33,930 nt of DNA. Origin: Acidobacteriaceae bacterium. Lineage in GTDB: Bacteria > Acidobacteriota > Terriglobia > Terriglobales > Acidobacteriaceae. The stretch is taken from positions 1 through 33,930 of the forward strand of contig JANYKL010000123.1 of the NCBI GenBank assembly GCA_025361625.1, written 5' to 3'. Under the pieces are notes generated by a model, which saw only the letters and a program-made list of their open reading frames with translations, did not search any database and had not been told where the DNA came from. Each line of letters starts with the position of its first letter. Position 1 is the first letter of the stretch. Shown piece after piece: positions 19,959 to 30,941 of the stretch. A program made the position numbers and the translations under genes.

Positions 19959-20732
19959 CTATCGCACGACTCCTTCTAAGGGGGAACTGGCCGTAGCGTA
20001 AAGTTTTCTTGGCATGCGGCCCGCCAGGTGAGCCTGTCGGCCGGCAACTACGGCGTGCTTCATCGCCTCCGCCATGAGGATCGGTTCTTGCGCTCCGGCG
20101 ATTCCCGTATTCATCAAGACTGCGTCGTAGCCAAGCTCCATGGCGATGGCAGCGTCGGACGCGGTTCCCACTCCTGCATCCACGATGAGCGGGACGCCCG
20201 TAATCAATTCGCGCAGTATACGCAAGTTCACGGTGTTCTGAATGCCGAGGCCACTTCCGATTGGCGCCCCGAGCGGCATAACCGCCGCCGCACCCGCATC
20301 GACCAAGCGCTTAGCAATGACAATGTCGTCGGATGTGTAAGCGAGCACCGTGAATCCTTCCTTTGCCAGCACGGCGGTAGCTTCGAGCGTTGCCTGTACG
20401 TCCGGATAGAGCGTTGCCTGATCGCCGATTACTTCTAGCTTAACCCAGTCAGAGAGCCCTACCTCGCGAGCCAGGCGCGCCGTACGGATCGTGTCGTCGG
20501 CTGTATAACATCCGGCCGTGTTGGGGAGAAGGAAATATCTCTTAGGGTCGATGTAGTCAAGCAGCGACTCTTTGCTGCGATCAAGATTCACGCGCCGCAC
20601 CGCCACCGTGACCATGTCCGCACCGCTCGCTTCAAGGGCGCGCGCGGTTTCTTGAAATGACTTGTATTTCCCCGTCCCGACGATGAGGCGGGACCGAAAT
20701 TCCTTGCCAGCGATGAATAGCGAATCTGTCAT
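19959..20732 (-). CDS. thiG: Thiazole synthase
   Basis: ThiG makes the thiazole phosphate of thiamine from deoxyxylulose 5-phosphate, dehydroglycine and ThiS thiocarboxylate; it forms a TIM barrel with a Schiff-base lysine. From ATG 20732 it has 257 aa with [10 protein letters not shown] (17-26), [10 protein letters not shown], the lysine in WVKLEVIGD (Lys98), [37 protein letters not shown] and [10 protein letters not shown]. The first ATG of the open frame, at 20783, would add 17 residues without family match. There is no thiS, thiF or thiO next to it and no recognisable TPP riboswitch upstream; instead the upstream region has an imperfect direct repeat. Confidence 0.95.
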
Positions 20733-20741
20733 AACTTTGCT

Positions 20742-20808
20742 ATTGTACGGCGAGAGCGGAGCCCATCGGTGATTTGGGAGCAATTGTAGAGAGCGACAAG
20801 CCCATCGG
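20742..20808 (-). repeat. Imperfect direct repeat upstream of thiG
   Basis: Two copies (20742-20769 and 20783-20808) share three blocks in the same order: ATTGTA, GAGAGCG and GCCCATCGG on the + strand. On the thiG strand each copy ends with TACAAT, a good -10-like hexamer; the distal one would give a leader of about 44 bases. It could be a duplicated promoter or operator. Confidence 0.55.
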
Positions 20809-20840: not shown

Positions 20841-22637
20841 CTAATGATGAAGCGAAGACTCGTGCGGCTTGTAGTCGTTTTCAGCTTTTACATACATCTC
20901 GTCGATCAGAACTCGGTAGCGATCTTCAATGCCGCGTCGACGTACTTTAAAAGTGTGAGTGAGAGTGCCGTTGTCTGCTGAAAACTCTTCGGGAACAAGC
21001 AAAACGCGCTTCAGCCTTTCGAAGCGTGCCAAATTGCCGTTCAGTTCCTCAATGATTCCATTATAAAGAATTTGTACTTTGGCATCGGCGACCAGAAGTT
21101 TACGAGAAGAACAATCGACCTGATTGGCGCGCGCCCAATTTTCCAGAACCGCGAAGTCGGGCGCGATCAGCACCGCTGGAAATTTCCTTCGGTCGCCGAT
21201 CACGACCGCAGTCCCGATCAGCGGATTCAATTTCAGGGAGTTCTCGATGGGCTGCGGAGCAATAAATTTCCCGCCGGACGTTTTTATCAAATCCTTTTTG
21301 CGATCGGTGATCGAGAGAAATCCGTCGCTGTCGAGATTACCGATGTCTCCGGTCTTGAACCATCCGTCTTCGAACGCCGCTTGTGTTTCTTCTGGGCGAT
21401 TCCAGTATCCAGAAAATATTGATGGACCACGCGCCAGCACTTCTCCATCGTCGGCTATCTTTACCTCGACGTTCGGGAGCGGCTTGCCGACAGTTCCTAT
21501 TTTGTGATTTTTGGGAGTGTTGACCGCGATCACGGGCGAGGTTTCAGTCAAGCCGTAACCCTCGTGAATCGGGATCCCAATATCGGCAAACCACTCCGCG
21601 AGTTCACGGCCGAGTGGCGCGCCGCCAGAAATAAATTCCTCCGCATTTCCTCCCATACCGACGCGCACTTTTGAAAAGAAGAGACGATCGGCCAGCTTCC
21701 ACGAAGCGGATGTCGGCTTCTTGCCGGCCAATACCTCGTCGCGATGCGCCCGTCCCACAGCGAGTGCCCAACGATAAATCTCGGCTTTCGGAAAGCCGGA
21801 AGTTTTCAAAATCACTTGCCGCCGAAGCTTTTCGTAAACGCGCGGCACTGCGATGAACAGGTTTGGTCGAACTTCAGAGAGCGCGGTTGCCAATTGCGAA
21901 ATGTCCGGGCAATAAGCCAGTACCACGCCGCGATAGAGGAGCGCGAAGTCGACGTGACGAGCGGTGACGTGGGACAACGGCAAAAAAGATACACTGACTT
22001 CCTCCTTGTCGCCGAAACCAAATGCCTCCATCGAGCAGGCAATATTAGAGGTCATATTGCCGTGCGTGAGCATCACTCCTTTAGCCGTGCCGGTTGTACC
22101 CGAGGTATAGATGATGGTTGCCAAATCGTCTGGAACTACAGACCGCGATTGCGTTTCGAATTCGGCGACAAAGTCTTTAGGGTCGTCATGCAGGATTGTC
22201 TGCATCAGGACCGCGTCGCTGCCGTCGACCGTATCCATAACAAGAACCCGTTCGAGCGGAGTATTTTTCTTAATAGTTAGCACTTTTTCCAACTGGCTCT
22301 TGGAGGAGACAGCAATGATTCGGGCGCCGGAGTCATTGAGAACGAATGCGGTCTGATGGGCGGTCTGAGTCGCGTAAATGGGGACTGTGACCGCTCCCAA
22401 GGTCAGCGCTGCAAAGTCCGCGATGGTCCACTCGGGACGATTCTCGCTGAGGATTGCAACACGGTCGCCTTTTCGAATTCCCCAGGCCGCAAAAGTCCGC
22501 GATACGGCAACGACCTGCTGAAACAGTTCGGCTGCGGAGATTGCCTTCCAGCCAAGCCCGTCTTTTTGCATCATGACGCGGCTGCGACCGCTCTGCCTGA
22601 CGCTTAGCAGAATATCGTTTAGCGTTCGAATGCTCAT
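20841..22637 (-). CDS. Long-chain fatty acyl-CoA ligase (AMP-binding, FAA1-like)
   Basis: Activates fatty acids to acyl-CoA through an acyl-adenylate. From ATG 22637 (GAGG just upstream) the protein has 598 aa, normal for the FAA1/long-chain group. Seen in order: the P-loop-like IIYTSGTTGTAKGVMLTHGN (in two parts of the A3 motif), FLPLSHVTAR, FISGGAPLGRELAEWF, EGYGLTETSP, GWFKTGDIG, the hinge TDRKKDLIKTSGGKFIAP and a C-terminal FKVRRRGIEDRY segment, where the last lysine region closes the adenylation site. It is upstream of thiG by about 108 bases; no functional link is expected. It is divergent from the selenoprotein gene. Confidence 0.9.
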   Translation of the reverse strand: MSIRTLNDILLSVRQSGRSRVMMQKDGLGWKAISAAELFQQVVAVSRTFAAWGIRKGDRVAILSENRPEWTIADFAALTLGAVTVPIYATQTAHQTAFVLNDSGARIIAVSSKSQLEKVLTIKKNTPLERVLVMDTVDGSDAVLMQTILHDDPKDFVAEFETQSRSVVPDDLATIIYTSGTTGTAKGVMLTHGNMTSNIACSMEAFGFGDKEEVSVSFLPLSHVTARHVDFALLYRGVVLAYCPDISQLATALSEVRPNLFIAVPRVYEKLRRQVILKTSGFPKAEIYRWALAVGRAHRDEVLAGKKPTSASWKLADRLFFSKVRVGMGGNAEEFISGGAPLGRELAEWFADIGIPIHEGYGLTETSPVIAVNTPKNHKIGTVGKPLPNVEVKIADDGEVLARGPSIFSGYWNRPEETQAAFEDGWFKTGDIGNLDSDGFLSITDRKKDLIKTSGGKFIAPQPIENSLKLNPLIGTAVVIGDRRKFPAVLIAPDFAVLENWARANQVDCSSRKLLVADAKVQILYNGIIEELNGNLARFERLKRVLLVPEEFSADNGTLTHTFKVRRRGIEDRYRVLIDEMYVKAENDYKPHESSLHH

Positions 22638-22792
22638 CCGCCTCGATCGTTGGCCGTATGTGCTAGTCAATATTGTACGCACAGCCAGCCTCCGAAAACG
22701 CATAAACGCAGCCCAGAATGCCTGTAGTTATTACTTCAGAGACGTTACCTTTGACCGATCAAGCGGTCGCAAGGTAGGCTTAGAGAGCTTTT

Positions 22793-22818
22793 GCGGAGGA
22801 AACCCGCGGAGGAAACCC
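22793..22818 (+). repeat. Perfect 13-bp tandem duplication carrying the ribosome-binding site
   Basis: GCGGAGGAAACCC is present twice back to back (22793-22805 and 22806-22818). The second copy places GGAGG 8 bases before ATG 22821; the first adds an extra GGAGG 13 bases further upstream. The purpose is unknown; it may be a standby ribosome site or a recent slippage event. Confidence 0.85.
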
Positions 22819-22820
22819 GT

Positions 22821-23405
22821 ATGAAGGTGAAACGAATCGTCAATTCCGCGAGGGTTATGTTTTTGGCGTATTTGTCTTTCGCAGTAATGGTCTCTCCGCA
22901 ACTGCAGGCCGAGAACAAGAAACCGGAGCCGCAAATCATGAAATTAAAAATAGGCGATACTGCACCCGATTTTAAATTGAAATATTTTGACGGCACCGAC
23001 CTGAAGGAAGTTTCGCTGAGCCAATATCGCGGCAAAAGCAATGTCGTGCTCGGCTTTTATATCTTTGCCTTCACCGGTGGTTGAACCGCGCAAATGAAGG
23101 CCTTCCAGCAAAATTTGAAAAAGCTGGAAGCCGCCGACACTCAGGTTCTGGGTGTAAGCATGGATAGCCCTTTTGCCAACAAAGCCTTCGCCGATTCCAT
23201 CGGTGTAACCTTCCCGCTACTGAGTGACTGGGGCGGAGATGTCACCCGTGAATATGGCCTCTACGTCGACCAATACAAAGCTCCCCGTCGTGTCAATTAC
23301 CTGATCGGTAAAGATGGAAAAATTATTGAAGAGCAGATCGATAAAGACGCCATTGATCCGACCAAGATCGTCGACGTGTGCGAACGTAAGAAAGTGAGCC
23401 GCTAA
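22821..23405 (+). CDS. Exported peroxiredoxin-like selenoprotein (in-frame TGA read as Sec88)
   Basis: Redoxin/AhpC-TSA fold protein of 194 aa if TGA at 23082-23084 is decoded as selenocysteine. A signal peptide (1-30, ending QLQA) directs it to the periplasm. The domain shows KIGDTAPDFKLKYFDG, VSLSQYRGK, VVLGFYIFAFTGG-U-TAQMKAF, VLGVSMDSPF, FPLLSDWGGDVTREYGLY and RVNYLIGKDGKI. The U sits exactly where peroxiredoxins have their peroxidatic Cys (FTxxC-T-xE/QM), and coding resumes in the same frame on both sides with full family similarity. The only other Cys in the mature protein is Cys187, a possible resolving residue. The ATG at 22821 has GGAGG at 22808-22812. The alternative, a nonsense mutation in a Cys gene, would need a change at precisely the catalytic codon (TGC or TGT to TGA). 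Confidence 0.85.
23102..23130 (+). promoter_or_regulatory. Candidate bacterial SECIS hairpin downstream of the UGA codon
   Basis: CTTCCAGC (23102-23109) can pair with GCTGGAAG (23123-23130), an 8-bp perfect stem with a 13-base A-rich loop, 17 bases after the TGA. A competing 7-bp pairing GCCTTCA (23067-23073) with TGAAGGC (23095-23101) would put the TGA in its loop. Bacterial SECIS elements lie directly 3' of the UGA inside the gene; which fold is used needs folding and comparison. The apical loop does not show the usual early G, so this is tentative. Confidence 0.4.
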
Positions 23406-27640: not shown

Positions 27641-29902
27641 TCAGCGCCGGATTGATTTCATTTCGGGGAAGTCTTCAATAGGTTCGGAGTTCGTGTTTAT
27701 TCGGGTTTCACCTACGAAGCGACCCAAAGCATCTTCAAGGGATGGCAACAGCAACGCCCTTTCACTCGAAAGCGCGCTATTCGCGGGTCGTTGAGCCTGT
27801 AAAGGCAGATCTCTTAGTGGGCACTTCTCTAACGAATTCGTGGGGATCCCAGTTGCCAGCGCCGCCCTCTCCACGAGCGATGCCCAACTGATAACTCCAA
27901 CGTTAGCAAGATGCCAGATACCAGATTCCCCGTCGATGAGCAAATCCAGGCACATGTGTACAAAGTCGGGAACGTAAGTAGGCGAGAGCATTGTGTCTGA
28001 AGCAGCGACAAAATGTTCGCCTCGCTGTAACTTTCGCATGGCAGTGATGACAAAGTTATCCTCATCCCATGGCCCAAAAAGGGATCCCGATCGTACCACG
28101 AGCGCGGACGGCATCAAAGCGAGCACGCGCTCCTCTGTCTCCACCTTGCACATGCCGTAATAGTTGATTGGGTCAGGCGGGTCGCTTTCAAGGTAGGCAC
28201 CCGTCTTCTTCCCGTTGAAAACTTGGCCGTTTGAAAAAGTTACCAGCCGAATGTCGCGTTGGCGGCACTCCATCGCCAGCAACGCCGGCCCCTCGGTGTT
28301 TTCGCGGTAACAGCGACTCTTATGGGTTTCGGCCTCATCGATACGCTCGTACCCTTCCGCATTGATGATTGCCCATGGCTGAAGCGTGAATAACGCCTTG
28401 TGAACTGATCTGCGGTCGGCGATATCGAGATGTTGGCGCGAAAGCACATGGCAGGGAATCCCCCGGGCTTTGCAGACATGGGCGAAAGCTTGACCGAGCG
28501 TGGTTGAGCCTCCCGTAATTAAAACCGGCCGCACCCGCGCTGACGAATTTTCATCAGGAGAAGTACCGCGAGATATTGCGTCACCGTTTTCATCAACTGA
28601 AAAGCCGTAGATAAAACGTTCGGGACGCTTCCACCACCCCAGAACCTTGAGAATCGGATGTTCCGGAGTATTCCCGGCGGCCAAGTTTCGCATCATCTCG
28701 ACGAGCGCGGTAGGGCGCGGAGGTGACGAGCGGACGTCATACACACCGGGCTCGTAGTGGCCATCGTTGCGGGTAACAAGGTGGTTCCAGTCGAACGCTC
28801 CGAGAAGCGACCAAGCCGTAACCGCCAAAACTTCGGCTCCATCCTTTCTACATTGATCTGCAGCTTGCCAGACCTCCAGGAACCATCGTAACTGCTCCTC
28901 TCGCGTGCAACCGTTATGGCATTCAGTAATAGCGATCGGTAAGTGGTAGCGCGACCATGCCTCCATGACCAGAGCGCGAGGACCTGCCGCCCCATCTCGG
29001 AGGACTCGCGCGGCTAGAACGTCCGCATACTTATCCCGTCCGTTAGTGCCGTGGCTTTCTTCGGGATATCTCTGAATGTTTTCATCGAGGTAACGTTCCC
29101 CACTCAGATAATGATTTATTCCGATTACCCCGGGCGCCAAGGAATTATCGAGAAACCATTCCAACTCAGGTTCCTGAACGCCGGCCCAAATGAAATAGGA
29201 CCACATTGGATGACTGCGATCTACCATCCCAGACAACAAGTCGAAAGTGCACCAGCGGCGCTCGTTTTCAAAATCGGCCTGATATGAGAGCCTTGGCGAA
29301 CTGAAAACTTTCCCTAGATCATCTGTCTGAACGAGCCGAGCCGAGGAATTCACTTGTCGGATCGCTCGAATCGACAAGATCACGGCACGACACTGATTCA
29401 GCAGGGCGCGGGCGAATGACAAGTCGTCATGTTTGTGGGGATACCAATGCCCATACAGCGCGCTGAAGCGTGCAGTCGTTAGCGGTTCGTTGACCGGGGT
29501 GTAATCTGCGATCCAGGGATAGCGACGGGCAACTGCTGCTGCATAATCCGATAAGCGTTGAGGGAATTCCGGGTCGAGAAGATTGGTCGCGCGAGGGCCA
29601 CTGCCATGATGGATCAAGCCCACGACCGGCTTAATGGCAAACTTCTTCAGGCATTCTAAAGATGCGTCCGCCCAACTCCAATCAGCTCTGGCAGTACCAT
29701 CCGGCGCTGTCTCTTCCCAGAGTATTGGGTGCCGAAGCGCCTTGATTCCAAGGGACGCAAATCTCTCAAAATCAGAAAGTCGGTGCCGATGACCGGTCCG
29801 TATGAGTTGCTCGAAATACACTCCTTCAACGCGGTTGATCGTGCACTCAACCCCGCCCCATAGCTGAAGACCCGGCTTGCCGGGTTCCTGCTTGTTCCCC
29901 AC
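27641..29902 (-). CDS. Fusion of a GH1-type glycosidase and an RmlD-like reductase
   Basis: 753-aa two-domain protein. Residues about 12-405 look like a glycoside hydrolase family 1 barrel: acid/base Glu139 in TPVNEP, nucleophile Glu327 in ITECHNG (usually TENG) and TAWSLLGAFDWN. Residues about 457-750 resemble dTDP-4-dehydrorhamnose reductase: VLITGGSTTLGQ, FSNGQVFNGKK, Tyr582/Lys586 in YYGMCK, SPTYVPDF and ANVGVISW. The start is GTG 29902: it has AGGGAG at 6-base spacing and follows the galT stop by 13 bases; the open frame continues to 30130 but that part is galT in another frame. The joining of hydrolase and NAD(P) reductase suggests processing of one sugar, or that the hydrolase part builds or edits glycans. 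Its substrate is unknown. There is no signal peptide, so it acts in the cytoplasm. Confidence 0.8.
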   Translation of the reverse strand: MGNKQEPGKPGLQLWGGVECTINRVEGVYFEQLIRTGHRHRLSDFERFASLGIKALRHPILWEETAPDGTARADWSWADASLECLKKFAIKPVVGLIHHGSGPRATNLLDPEFPQRLSDYAAAVARRYPWIADYTPVNEPLTTARFSALYGHWYPHKHDDLSFARALLNQCRAVILSIRAIRQVNSSARLVQTDDLGKVFSSPRLSYQADFENERRWCTFDLLSGMVDRSHPMWSYFIWAGVQEPELEWFLDNSLAPGVIGINHYLSGERYLDENIQRYPEESHGTNGRDKYADVLAARVLRDGAAGPRALVMEAWSRYHLPIAITECHNGCTREEQLRWFLEVWQAADQCRKDGAEVLAVTAWSLLGAFDWNHLVTRNDGHYEPGVYDVRSSPPRPTALVEMMRNLAAGNTPEHPILKVLGWWKRPERFIYGFSVDENGDAISRGTSPDENSSARVRPVLITGGSTTLGQAFAHVCKARGIPCHVLSRQHLDIADRRSVHKALFTLQPWAIINAEGYERIDEAETHKSRCYRENTEGPALLAMECRQRDIRLVTFSNGQVFNGKKTGAYLESDPPDPINYYGMCKVETEERVLALMPSALVVRSGSLFGPWDEDNFVITAMRKLQRGEHFVAASDTMLSPTYVPDFVHMCLDLLIDGESGIWHLANVGVISWASLVERAALATGIPTNSLEKCPLRDLPLQAQRPANSALSSERALLLPSLEDALGRFVGETRINTNSEPIEDFPEMKSIRR

Positions 29903-29915
29903 TCTTCGCTCCCTC

Positions 29916-30941
29916 TTATAGCTCGCAAACCTCTCGCAAAAGCTGGGCAGCCGATTCCGGCGTAATATCGCGCTGCGGAGTGCCCAACATTTCGAAGCCA
30001 ACCATGAACTTTTTGATGCTTGCGGAGCGAAGAAGGGGCGGATAAAAATGCGCGTGCAAGTGCCACTCGGGATGACTTTCGCGCGTACAAGGTTGCTGGT
30101 GAAATCCCATGGAATAAGGAAAAGACACATTAAACAAGCGGTCGTAGGCTCTCGTAAGCTTGTTCAGGGTTTCCGCCAGTTGGTTTTTTTCGTCCTCCAA
30201 AAGATAGGAAATGTCAGCGATATGTCTACGACTGACAACAAGAGTCTCAAACGGCCACAGCGCCCAGAAGGGAACTACCACCACAAACCGTTCATTCAGC
30301 AACACGATGCGTTCTGAGTGTTTGGTCTCGACGCGGGTGTAGTCACAAAGCAAACAACTCCCGCTCTCGAGCAAATACTTTTGCATCGACTTTTGTTCTT
30401 TAGCGGGCTCATTCGGAATCGATTGCGTCCCCCAAATCTGACAATGAGGATGTGGGTTACTGGCGCCCATCATTGCACCGCGGTTCTCGAAGATCTGAAC
30501 ATACTGAATGAAATCCCGCGAACGGAGGTCTTTGAACTGTTCAATCCACATTTCGATTACGAGCCGGGTATCCTCTATGGCCATACCAGCCATAGTGAGA
30601 TCATGACGGGGCGAGAAACAACCCACTCTGCAGATTCCCCGCTCCGGGCTTGACACAAGCAAGTCTGAGCTGTTTATTTCACTATCGATGGCCGTGGCCT
30701 GCAATGCAGGGAAATCGTTGTTGAAAACAAATGTAGATGTGTACTTCTCATTCCTAAGTCCACCAAATCTCGCGTTTCCTGGACATAAGTAGCAGGATGG
30801 GTCATATTGCGGTTGAACATCAGCAGCCGAATCGTGAATCTGGCCTTGCCATGGCCTTTGGGTACGATTAGGAGATACTAAGACCCATTCGCCGGTGAGT
30901 TGATTAAGTCGGCGATGAGATGAATCGATTGGCTCTGACAT
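29916..30941 (-). CDS. galT: Galactose-1-phosphate uridylyltransferase
   Basis: Leloir-pathway enzyme exchanging UMP between UDP-glucose and galactose 1-phosphate. At 341 aa it matches the usual length of about 345 aa. Landmarks are GEWVLVSPNRTQRPWQGQ, zinc-site CYLCPGN (Cys50, Cys53), FENRGAMMGASNPHPHCQIWG with the catalytic His166 in HPH, and GFHQQPC...EWHLHAHFYPPLLRS. It sits 45 bases after galK and 13 before the GH1-RmlD fusion gene. Both Cys50 and Cys53, and the downstream His residues, are kept, so it should be active. A galE epimerase needed to recycle UDP-galactose is not in this window. Confidence 0.95.
   Translation of the reverse strand: MSEPIDSSHRRLNQLTGEWVLVSPNRTQRPWQGQIHDSAADVQPQYDPSCYLCPGNARFGGLRNEKYTSTFVFNNDFPALQATAIDSEINSSDLLVSSPERGICRVGCFSPRHDLTMAGMAIEDTRLVIEMWIEQFKDLRSRDFIQYVQIFENRGAMMGASNPHPHCQIWGTQSIPNEPAKEQKSMQKYLLESGSCLLCDYTRVETKHSERIVLLNERFVVVVPFWALWPFETLVVSRRHIADISYLLEDEKNQLAETLNKLTRAYDRLFNVSFPYSMGFHQQPCTRESHPEWHLHAHFYPPLLRSASIKKFMVGFEMLGTPQRDITPESAAQLLREVCEL

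Follow-up and report, generated by a model that had tools for sequence, protein, structure and literature searches.

The window analysed here is the whole stretch of 33,930 nucleotides from an Acidobacteriaceae genome, and the gene under study lies at 22821-23405 on the plus strand. It comprises 194 codons followed by TAA and contains one internal stop, a TGA at 23082-23084 that forms codon 88. Its read-through translation begins MKVKRIV, continues as FAFTGG-stop-TAQMKAF across the TGA and ends VDVCERKKVSR before the terminal stop. A first-pass annotation had described a single in-frame TGA splitting an otherwise continuous frame, together with its TxxU context, a leader and Cys187, and each of these can be read in the translation. 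The same annotation expected standard gene calling to miss or split the gene; the mechanical list of open reading frames does cut it in two (22791-23084 with a TTG start, and 23094-23405 starting at the ATG of M92), and for real gene callers this outcome is plausible. The features of the locus, all on the plus strand, are as follows.

22808-22812, plus strand: putative Shine-Dalgarno-like GGAGG, read from the sequence, 8 nt upstream of the ATG
22821-23405, plus strand: selenocysteine (Sec) peroxiredoxin-like coding sequence with predicted Sec at residue 88 and a TAA stop, from translation, domain match and conservation in relatives
22821-22910, plus strand: predicted signal peptide, residues 1-30, from the sequence and a crude hydropathy and K/R criterion, with putative cleavage after LQA
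23061-23063, plus strand: Ile81, at the Pro place of the Pxxx(T/S)xxC motif, from the alignment of 84 rows (motif from the available text of PMC5302317)
23073-23075, plus strand: Thr85, the T of TxxU, from the same alignment
23082-23084, plus strand: in-frame TGA, predicted Sec88, at the peroxidatic position, from translation and codon comparison in 84 rows
23102-23130, plus strand: SECIS-like hairpin separated from the TGA by 17 nt, in which a 15-nt loop lies between the arms 23102-23108 and 23124-23130
23289-23291, plus strand: Arg157, a conserved Arg of active-site type (84 of 84 rows)
23379-23381, plus strand: Cys187 (TGC), candidate resolving residue (83 of 84 rows) in a C-terminal helix of the structural model

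Directly before the ATG, a 13-nt tandem duplication (gcggaggaaaccc twice, 22793-22818) gives two Shine-Dalgarno-like motifs. The gene adjoins a divergent AMP-binding gene of acyl-CoA-synthetase type (20841-22703, minus strand), beyond which lies ThiG (19959-20783, minus strand). Among 33 Acidobacteriota loci, many of them cut short, 32 also have the AMP-binding neighbour and 19 have ThiG; the one without the AMP-binding gene, L031, includes just 289 bases on the upstream side of the match. These surroundings constitute an old, stable neighbourhood. Near the window gene we noticed no redox or operon partner, AMP-binding and ThiG being no obvious partners. Elsewhere in the window, a frame of 829 residues (27641-30130, minus strand) joins a weak match to glycosyl hydrolase family 1 to an RmlD-type reductase domain.

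The codon at position 88 is conserved far beyond this genome. A first scan with one genome per species found 34 relatives, mainly close ones, and codon 88 is TGA in 33 of them, all Acidobacteriota by their titles; the exception is a Kosmotogaceae protein of 41% identity that has TGT. These 34 nearest sequences have 45 invariant positions, of which 88 and 187 are the only ones with a chalcogen. A profile search over 299 genomes of the class, of which the best 150 matches were listed and counted, yielded 133 matches with exactly one TGA, one with a TGA and a TAG and 16 without a stop, so that among these best 150 at least 115 of the 299 genomes hold at least one TGA form. The best 30 loci of this search, the window's being one, all have TGA in the place of codon 88 and a Cys aligned with residue 187. 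We picked 20 further loci: 12 of the 16 listed without a stop, which carry TGC or TGT exactly at codon 88, and 8 with a stop, which have TGA there; the C-terminal Cys is present in all 20. An alignment of 84 rows has a Sec or Cys codon at 88 throughout, TGA in 71 (hereafter Sec rows) and TGC or TGT in 13 (Cys rows), the latter being the 12 loci chosen for having no stop plus the outlier L049. Genomes sampled from the window's own family either carry the gene with TGA or yielded no copy of it; Cys forms that share Cys187 occur in other families of the class. When 33 relatives were compared pairwise with the window, median pN/pS was 0.24 before the TGA (residues 40-87) and 0.19 behind it; these values are rough because dS is at or near saturation, and they indicate that both halves of the gene are under purifying selection. 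A search for plasmid copies matched 286 records, all below 60% identity. Among the matches listed, 14 genomes in family f5 of the class have two TGA-bearing matches close together on one contig (for example G144:C374:6155-7189, G104:C32:13136-14171 and G140:C43:4979-5977); in one genome, G028, the second of the pair also contains a TAG.

Translated through the TGA, the window protein matches the Pfam AhpC-TSA domain with 118 bits (cut-off 26) over residues 44-169 and the Redoxin domain with 76.2 bits (cut-off 26.6). Because the AhpC-TSA match runs across the TGA, a chance frame is ruled out. The leader of about 30 residues (MKVKRIVNSARVMFLAYLSFAVMVSPQLQA, with a putative cleavage site) passes a crude criterion of hydropathy and K/R content, as do 78 of the 84 rows in all, and the leader is the support for export. 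Three of the others (L022, L028 and L082) miss it by the K/R rule only, and three (L049, L086 and L091) have no visible leader. Within the domain, position 85 is Thr in 82 rows and Ser in two, Arg157 is kept in 84 of 84 rows and Cys187 in 83, L049 being the exception and also the one row with a Cys at +5. Leaving L049 aside, the residues at 88 and 187 are the sole chalcogens of the domain in 81 of 83 rows, the window's included; L091 and L099 have a third. The idea in the first-pass annotation that Cys187 might be the resolving residue is stronger than the single sequence could make it, because this Cys is kept in 83 of 84 rows. The alignments indicate that TGA88 is maintained as a Sec/Cys site together with the Thr, the Arg and Cys187. 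A structure predicted for the mature protein from 30 sequences (pLDDT 88.4, pTM 0.83) places Cys187, model residue 157, within the last helix (model residues 151-163). Its best matches among solved structures are M. tuberculosis BcpB (Z 23.4), AhpE (22.7) and archaeal and bacterial BCP/PrxQ proteins (22.0-22.4), which cover about 150 residues and are tied within about one Z unit; typical 2-Cys enzymes come next at about 21. Nearest by sequence are an archaeal-type peroxiredoxin entry and AhpE.

One residue departs from this pattern. The first-pass annotation had placed the TGA at the peroxidatic cysteine position in FTGG-U-TAQM; conservation of Thr85, Sec88 and Arg157 agrees with it, but the motif Pro is replaced by Ile81 in the window and position 81 is I in 37, V in 32, P in 14 and F in one of the 84 rows. 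The available text of PMC5302317 terms Pxxx(T/S)xxC definitive for peroxiredoxins and reports it in 99.3% of members. Peroxidase activity is thus not to be assumed, because Ile or Val replaces the motif Pro. With the motif Pro gone and a distal Cys present, a genuine exported selenoprotein of this fold might instead be a cell-envelope oxidoreductase that acts on thiols and disulfides or modifies thiols in another way, a reading in keeping with the definitive status given to that motif and with the I, V or F that 70 of the 84 rows have at position 81, 66 of them among the 71 Sec rows. We judge it unlikely, given that the active-site Thr (or Ser) and Arg are retained in every row, that the nearest folds are peroxidases of AhpE/BCP type, that the read-through translation of the window protein has no CxxC or UxxC motif and that Pro persists in members of the same tree, in 5 of 71 Sec rows against 9 of 13 Cys rows (counts uncorrected for ancestry). 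The window protein is probably a selenoprotein of the peroxiredoxin fold that works like a peroxiredoxin, albeit without the motif Pro that marks the superfamily.

The genome that contains the window (3.83 Mb in 196 contigs, 95.69% complete, 0.34% contaminated) encodes the machinery to insert selenocysteine. The first-pass annotation had proposed a search for selA, selB, selD and tRNA-Sec, and all four were found over their cut-offs: tRNA-Sec with 71.4 bits (14 weaker matches lie below the cut-off), SelB with 360.8, SelD with 355.1 and SelA with 513.3. Only matches over cut-off were counted here, because low-scoring matches to tRNA-Sec, SelB and SelD occur in 14 of 14 control genomes and to SelA in four. 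SelD (L012:1501-2451, minus strand) is itself a selenoprotein, with TGA in AGUASK. A DsbD-type membrane protein (DsbD_TM, 64.7 bits) is also encoded. One other genome, G006, has two SelB genes over cut-off (G006:C197 and G006:C17, 432.9 and 380.7 bits).

SelB and the TGA gene occur together. The profile search covered 74 genomes of the window's family, in many of which 12 of a larger number of first-look candidates were scored. Fourteen of them reach E 1.1e-38 or better, always with a TGA form, and 60 have nothing better than 5e-28, matches taken to be other peroxiredoxins. SelB (E 1e-98 or better) is present in 14 of the 14 genomes with the gene versus 5 of the 60 without it (G018, G054, G206, G227 and G254; a sixth, G260, has a weak match of 2.3e-69), an association with a Fisher p of 2.5e-11 (8.5e-11 with G260) that overstates independence because the genomes share ancestry. 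Over the 299 genomes of the class, SelB at E<1e-80 is found in 107 of 115 genomes with a TGA gene versus 104 of 184 others, a comparison group that is not clean and may hold matches beyond the best 150. The eight TGA-gene genomes without a strong SelB match (G015, G132, G164, G188, G190, G226, G253 and G264) are 79-94% complete and consist of about 80 to 990 contigs.

Behind the UGA, a spacer of 17 nt leads to a stem of 7 pairs with a 15-nt loop, an arrangement common to the window's clade. In the 58 Sec rows of this clade the first stem pairs in 85.8% of cells (8 columns) versus 20-56% for slid partners, and 6 or 7 of its 7 pairs form in 56 of the 58. A second group of 13 Sec rows has another stem, UAUCA-GGC-UGAUA (UACCA-GGC-UGGUA in four rows), which is 98.5% paired versus 8-59% for slid partners, with 5 of 5 pairs in 12 of the 13 rows; both stems were read from the very sequences scored and are thereby favoured over their slid versions. 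On 12 Cys rows the second stem is 43% paired, and it is complete in one of the 13, L091. Median minimum free energy is -12.1 kcal/mol in the 71 Sec rows versus -5.9 in the 13 Cys rows, and against synonymous-codon shuffles the median z is -1.47 versus 0.03, with 69 of 71 Sec rows beating the shuffle mean; the corresponding p values, 3e-7 for energy and 3e-4 for shuffle z, overstate independence because the rows are related. Two Sec rows of the 71 show no gain in stability over their own shuffles, and Cys rows L084, L087 and L049 fold well. The window's own hairpin is only modestly more stable than synonymous shuffles (z -1.0); in plain shuffles its z is -2.3 and -2.5, and values for ten relatives lie between -0.5 and -2.8. 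The RNAalifold covariation term is 0.07, with one compensated pair. Support for the hairpin consists of stability and pairing, not of covariation, because slid partners show as many double changes as the true stem or more (up to 5 versus 2). On these measures, a SECIS-like stem-loop follows the UGA in Sec rows, and Cys rows as a group are without it.

By eye, the apical loop starts CAAAA in the window and CAGAA in many relatives. The bSECISearch consensus expects a G in the apical loop, and the window's loop, as read by eye, lacks such a G. Bacterial hairpins vary, and some fall outside the consensus model (PMC12013277, in its available text). We also considered the hairpin of selD in the window's genome as a parallel and set it aside; it looks alike by eye but folds no better than shuffles (z -0.68).

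In a tree of the 84 rows, rooted at the midpoint and with bootstrap support not fully settled, Cys rows sit in several places among Sec rows. The Cys rows L085 and L089 group with the Sec rows L095 and L097 (100/99, 99/82), the Cys row L090 groups with the Sec rows L092, L093 and L099 (99/84, 100/94), and a group of seven Cys rows lies beside these (99/92). L086 and L091 have long branches and an unsure placement. Outside this mixed group of 25 rows and L049, the remaining 58 rows, including the window, are all Sec. L091, a Cys form (TGC) of unsure place in which no leader is visible, can still form the complete 5-pair stem of the Sec rows related to it and is perhaps a recent change from Sec to Cys.

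That UGA88 is decoded as selenocysteine, as the first-pass annotation had proposed, is strongly supported by these comparisons of sequence. Insertion of a different residue such as Trp or Cys at UGA88, or a selenium-free read-through such as a changed genetic code would bring, is very improbable: the codon comparison by itself shows read-through, and the presence of SelB is no proof of its use at UGA88, but the TGA gene co-occurs with SelB, all 13 homologues without TGA have Cys at 88 and none Trp, and six of the 22 open frames of at least 250 codons in the window end in TGA, not all of these frames being genes. A changed code is rejected, since the Pfam-supported frame at 27641-30130, with its RmlD and glycosyl hydrolase matches, terminates at TGA. 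Equally hard to credit is a true stop, whether in a decayed gene, through a read error or between two peptides with re-initiation at Met92, for although both halves are listed as open reading frames and the 34 nearest rows all have Met at 92, 14 of the 84 rows have L or I there, the TGA is kept in 71 rows with purifying selection on both sides, the Cys forms are one continuous frame and a split would place Thr85 and Arg157 on separate peptides. The same evidence answers two ways in which the first-pass annotation had said it could fail, a sequencing error being excluded by TGA at codon 88 in many genomes and decay of the 3' half by the pN/pS after the TGA.

The best NCBIfam score of the window protein is 79.7 bits against a cut-off of 270, for PrxU (NF040737, 'Prx, TxxU'), a model we take to be that of the Eubacterium acidaminophilum enzyme. 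No NCBIfam model reaches its cut-off for the window protein, so automatic annotation may truncate the gene; over 31 rows of alignment A3 the best E-value is 8.4e-26. In PrxQ and BCP proteins the resolving Cys lies a few residues after the first Cys, and such a nearby Cys is missing from the window protein and from all rows but the outlier L049. In atypical 2-Cys enzymes of Prx5 type the resolving Cys follows in the same chain at a distance of about 100 residues; Cys187, the candidate resolving residue at +99, would be similar in spacing. AhpE (Rv2238c of M. tuberculosis) and BcpB/PrxQ are the closest solved structures (25-32% identity, Z 22-23), but AhpE is a 1-Cys enzyme according to its PDB titles, whereas the window's family keeps Cys187 in 83 of 84 rows. 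Like the window protein, PrxU combines the AhpC/TSA fold with a TxxU active site in which Sec is the peroxidatic residue (PMC13188914, Table 1); the window protein differs from it in lacking the motif Pro and in having a leader and a single distal C-terminal Cys. The Prx-SUH thiol peroxidase (NF045827) shares Sec and the superfamily, but the window protein scores 35.1 bits against a cut-off of 298 and has TxxU where the Prx-SUH motif is given as CxxU (PMC13188914, available text). Scores this far below cut-off led us to reject identity with PrxU, Prx-SUH or the AhpC model. Prx-like selenoproteins of UxxC, UxxU and UxxS type (same text) likewise have Sec in a domain of AhpC/TSA type; the window protein instead has GGU-TAQ, with no Cys, Sec or Ser at +3 and a Cys at +99.

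A 2026 review on the selenoproteins of prokaryotes (PMC13188914, available text) includes Prx TxxU among the verified types and also gives several Prx-like ones, and the available text of a 2006 survey (PMC1794560) counts four selenoproteins of three families in Acidobacteria without naming them there. It is possible that the family was noticed earlier under 'Prx' in that count. The available texts of these two papers and of PMC9312934, PMC12013277 and PMC5029168 contain no description of the window's Sec family, and in the open-access texts available we found no description of a Sec peroxiredoxin that combines export and a distal Cys with loss of the motif Pro. PMC12013277 includes Occallatibacter, a relative in cultivation, among the Sec-utilizing bacteria. 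Sec peroxiredoxins as such are already known; the window protein differs from those described by its leader, the Ile81 in place of a near-universal Pro and the distal Cys.

We consider it likely that the window encodes an exported thioredoxin-fold selenoprotein of peroxiredoxin type, with Sec at 88, that acts as a peroxidase resolved through Cys187. SelB and Sec-tRNA, guided by the hairpin 17 nt downstream, would read the UGA at 23082-23084 as Sec88, and the leader would carry the protein across the inner membrane into the periplasm. There the selenolate of Sec88, beside Thr85 and Arg157, would attack a peroxide and become a selenenic acid. Cys187, in the last helix and the only other chalcogen of the domain, could then condense with Sec88 to a selenenylsulfide, either within the chain or across a dimer, and a periplasmic thiol donor fed by the DsbD-type membrane protein may reduce this bond.

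The wider reading, to which we give about equal weight for and against, is that this protein belongs to an unnamed, class-wide set of envelope Sec peroxidases in Acidobacteriota, mostly without the motif Pro, with a Sec88-Cys187 cycle, two hairpins and repeated exchanges of Sec and Cys. The two hairpins within one protein family offer tests of what SelB requires, and the mixed Sec and Cys forms, with their constant second Cys, are natural counterparts in which the benefit of selenium to an enzyme can be studied. If such a family of envelope Sec peroxidases is real, Acidobacteriota would have a selenium-dependent defence against peroxide outside the cytoplasm.
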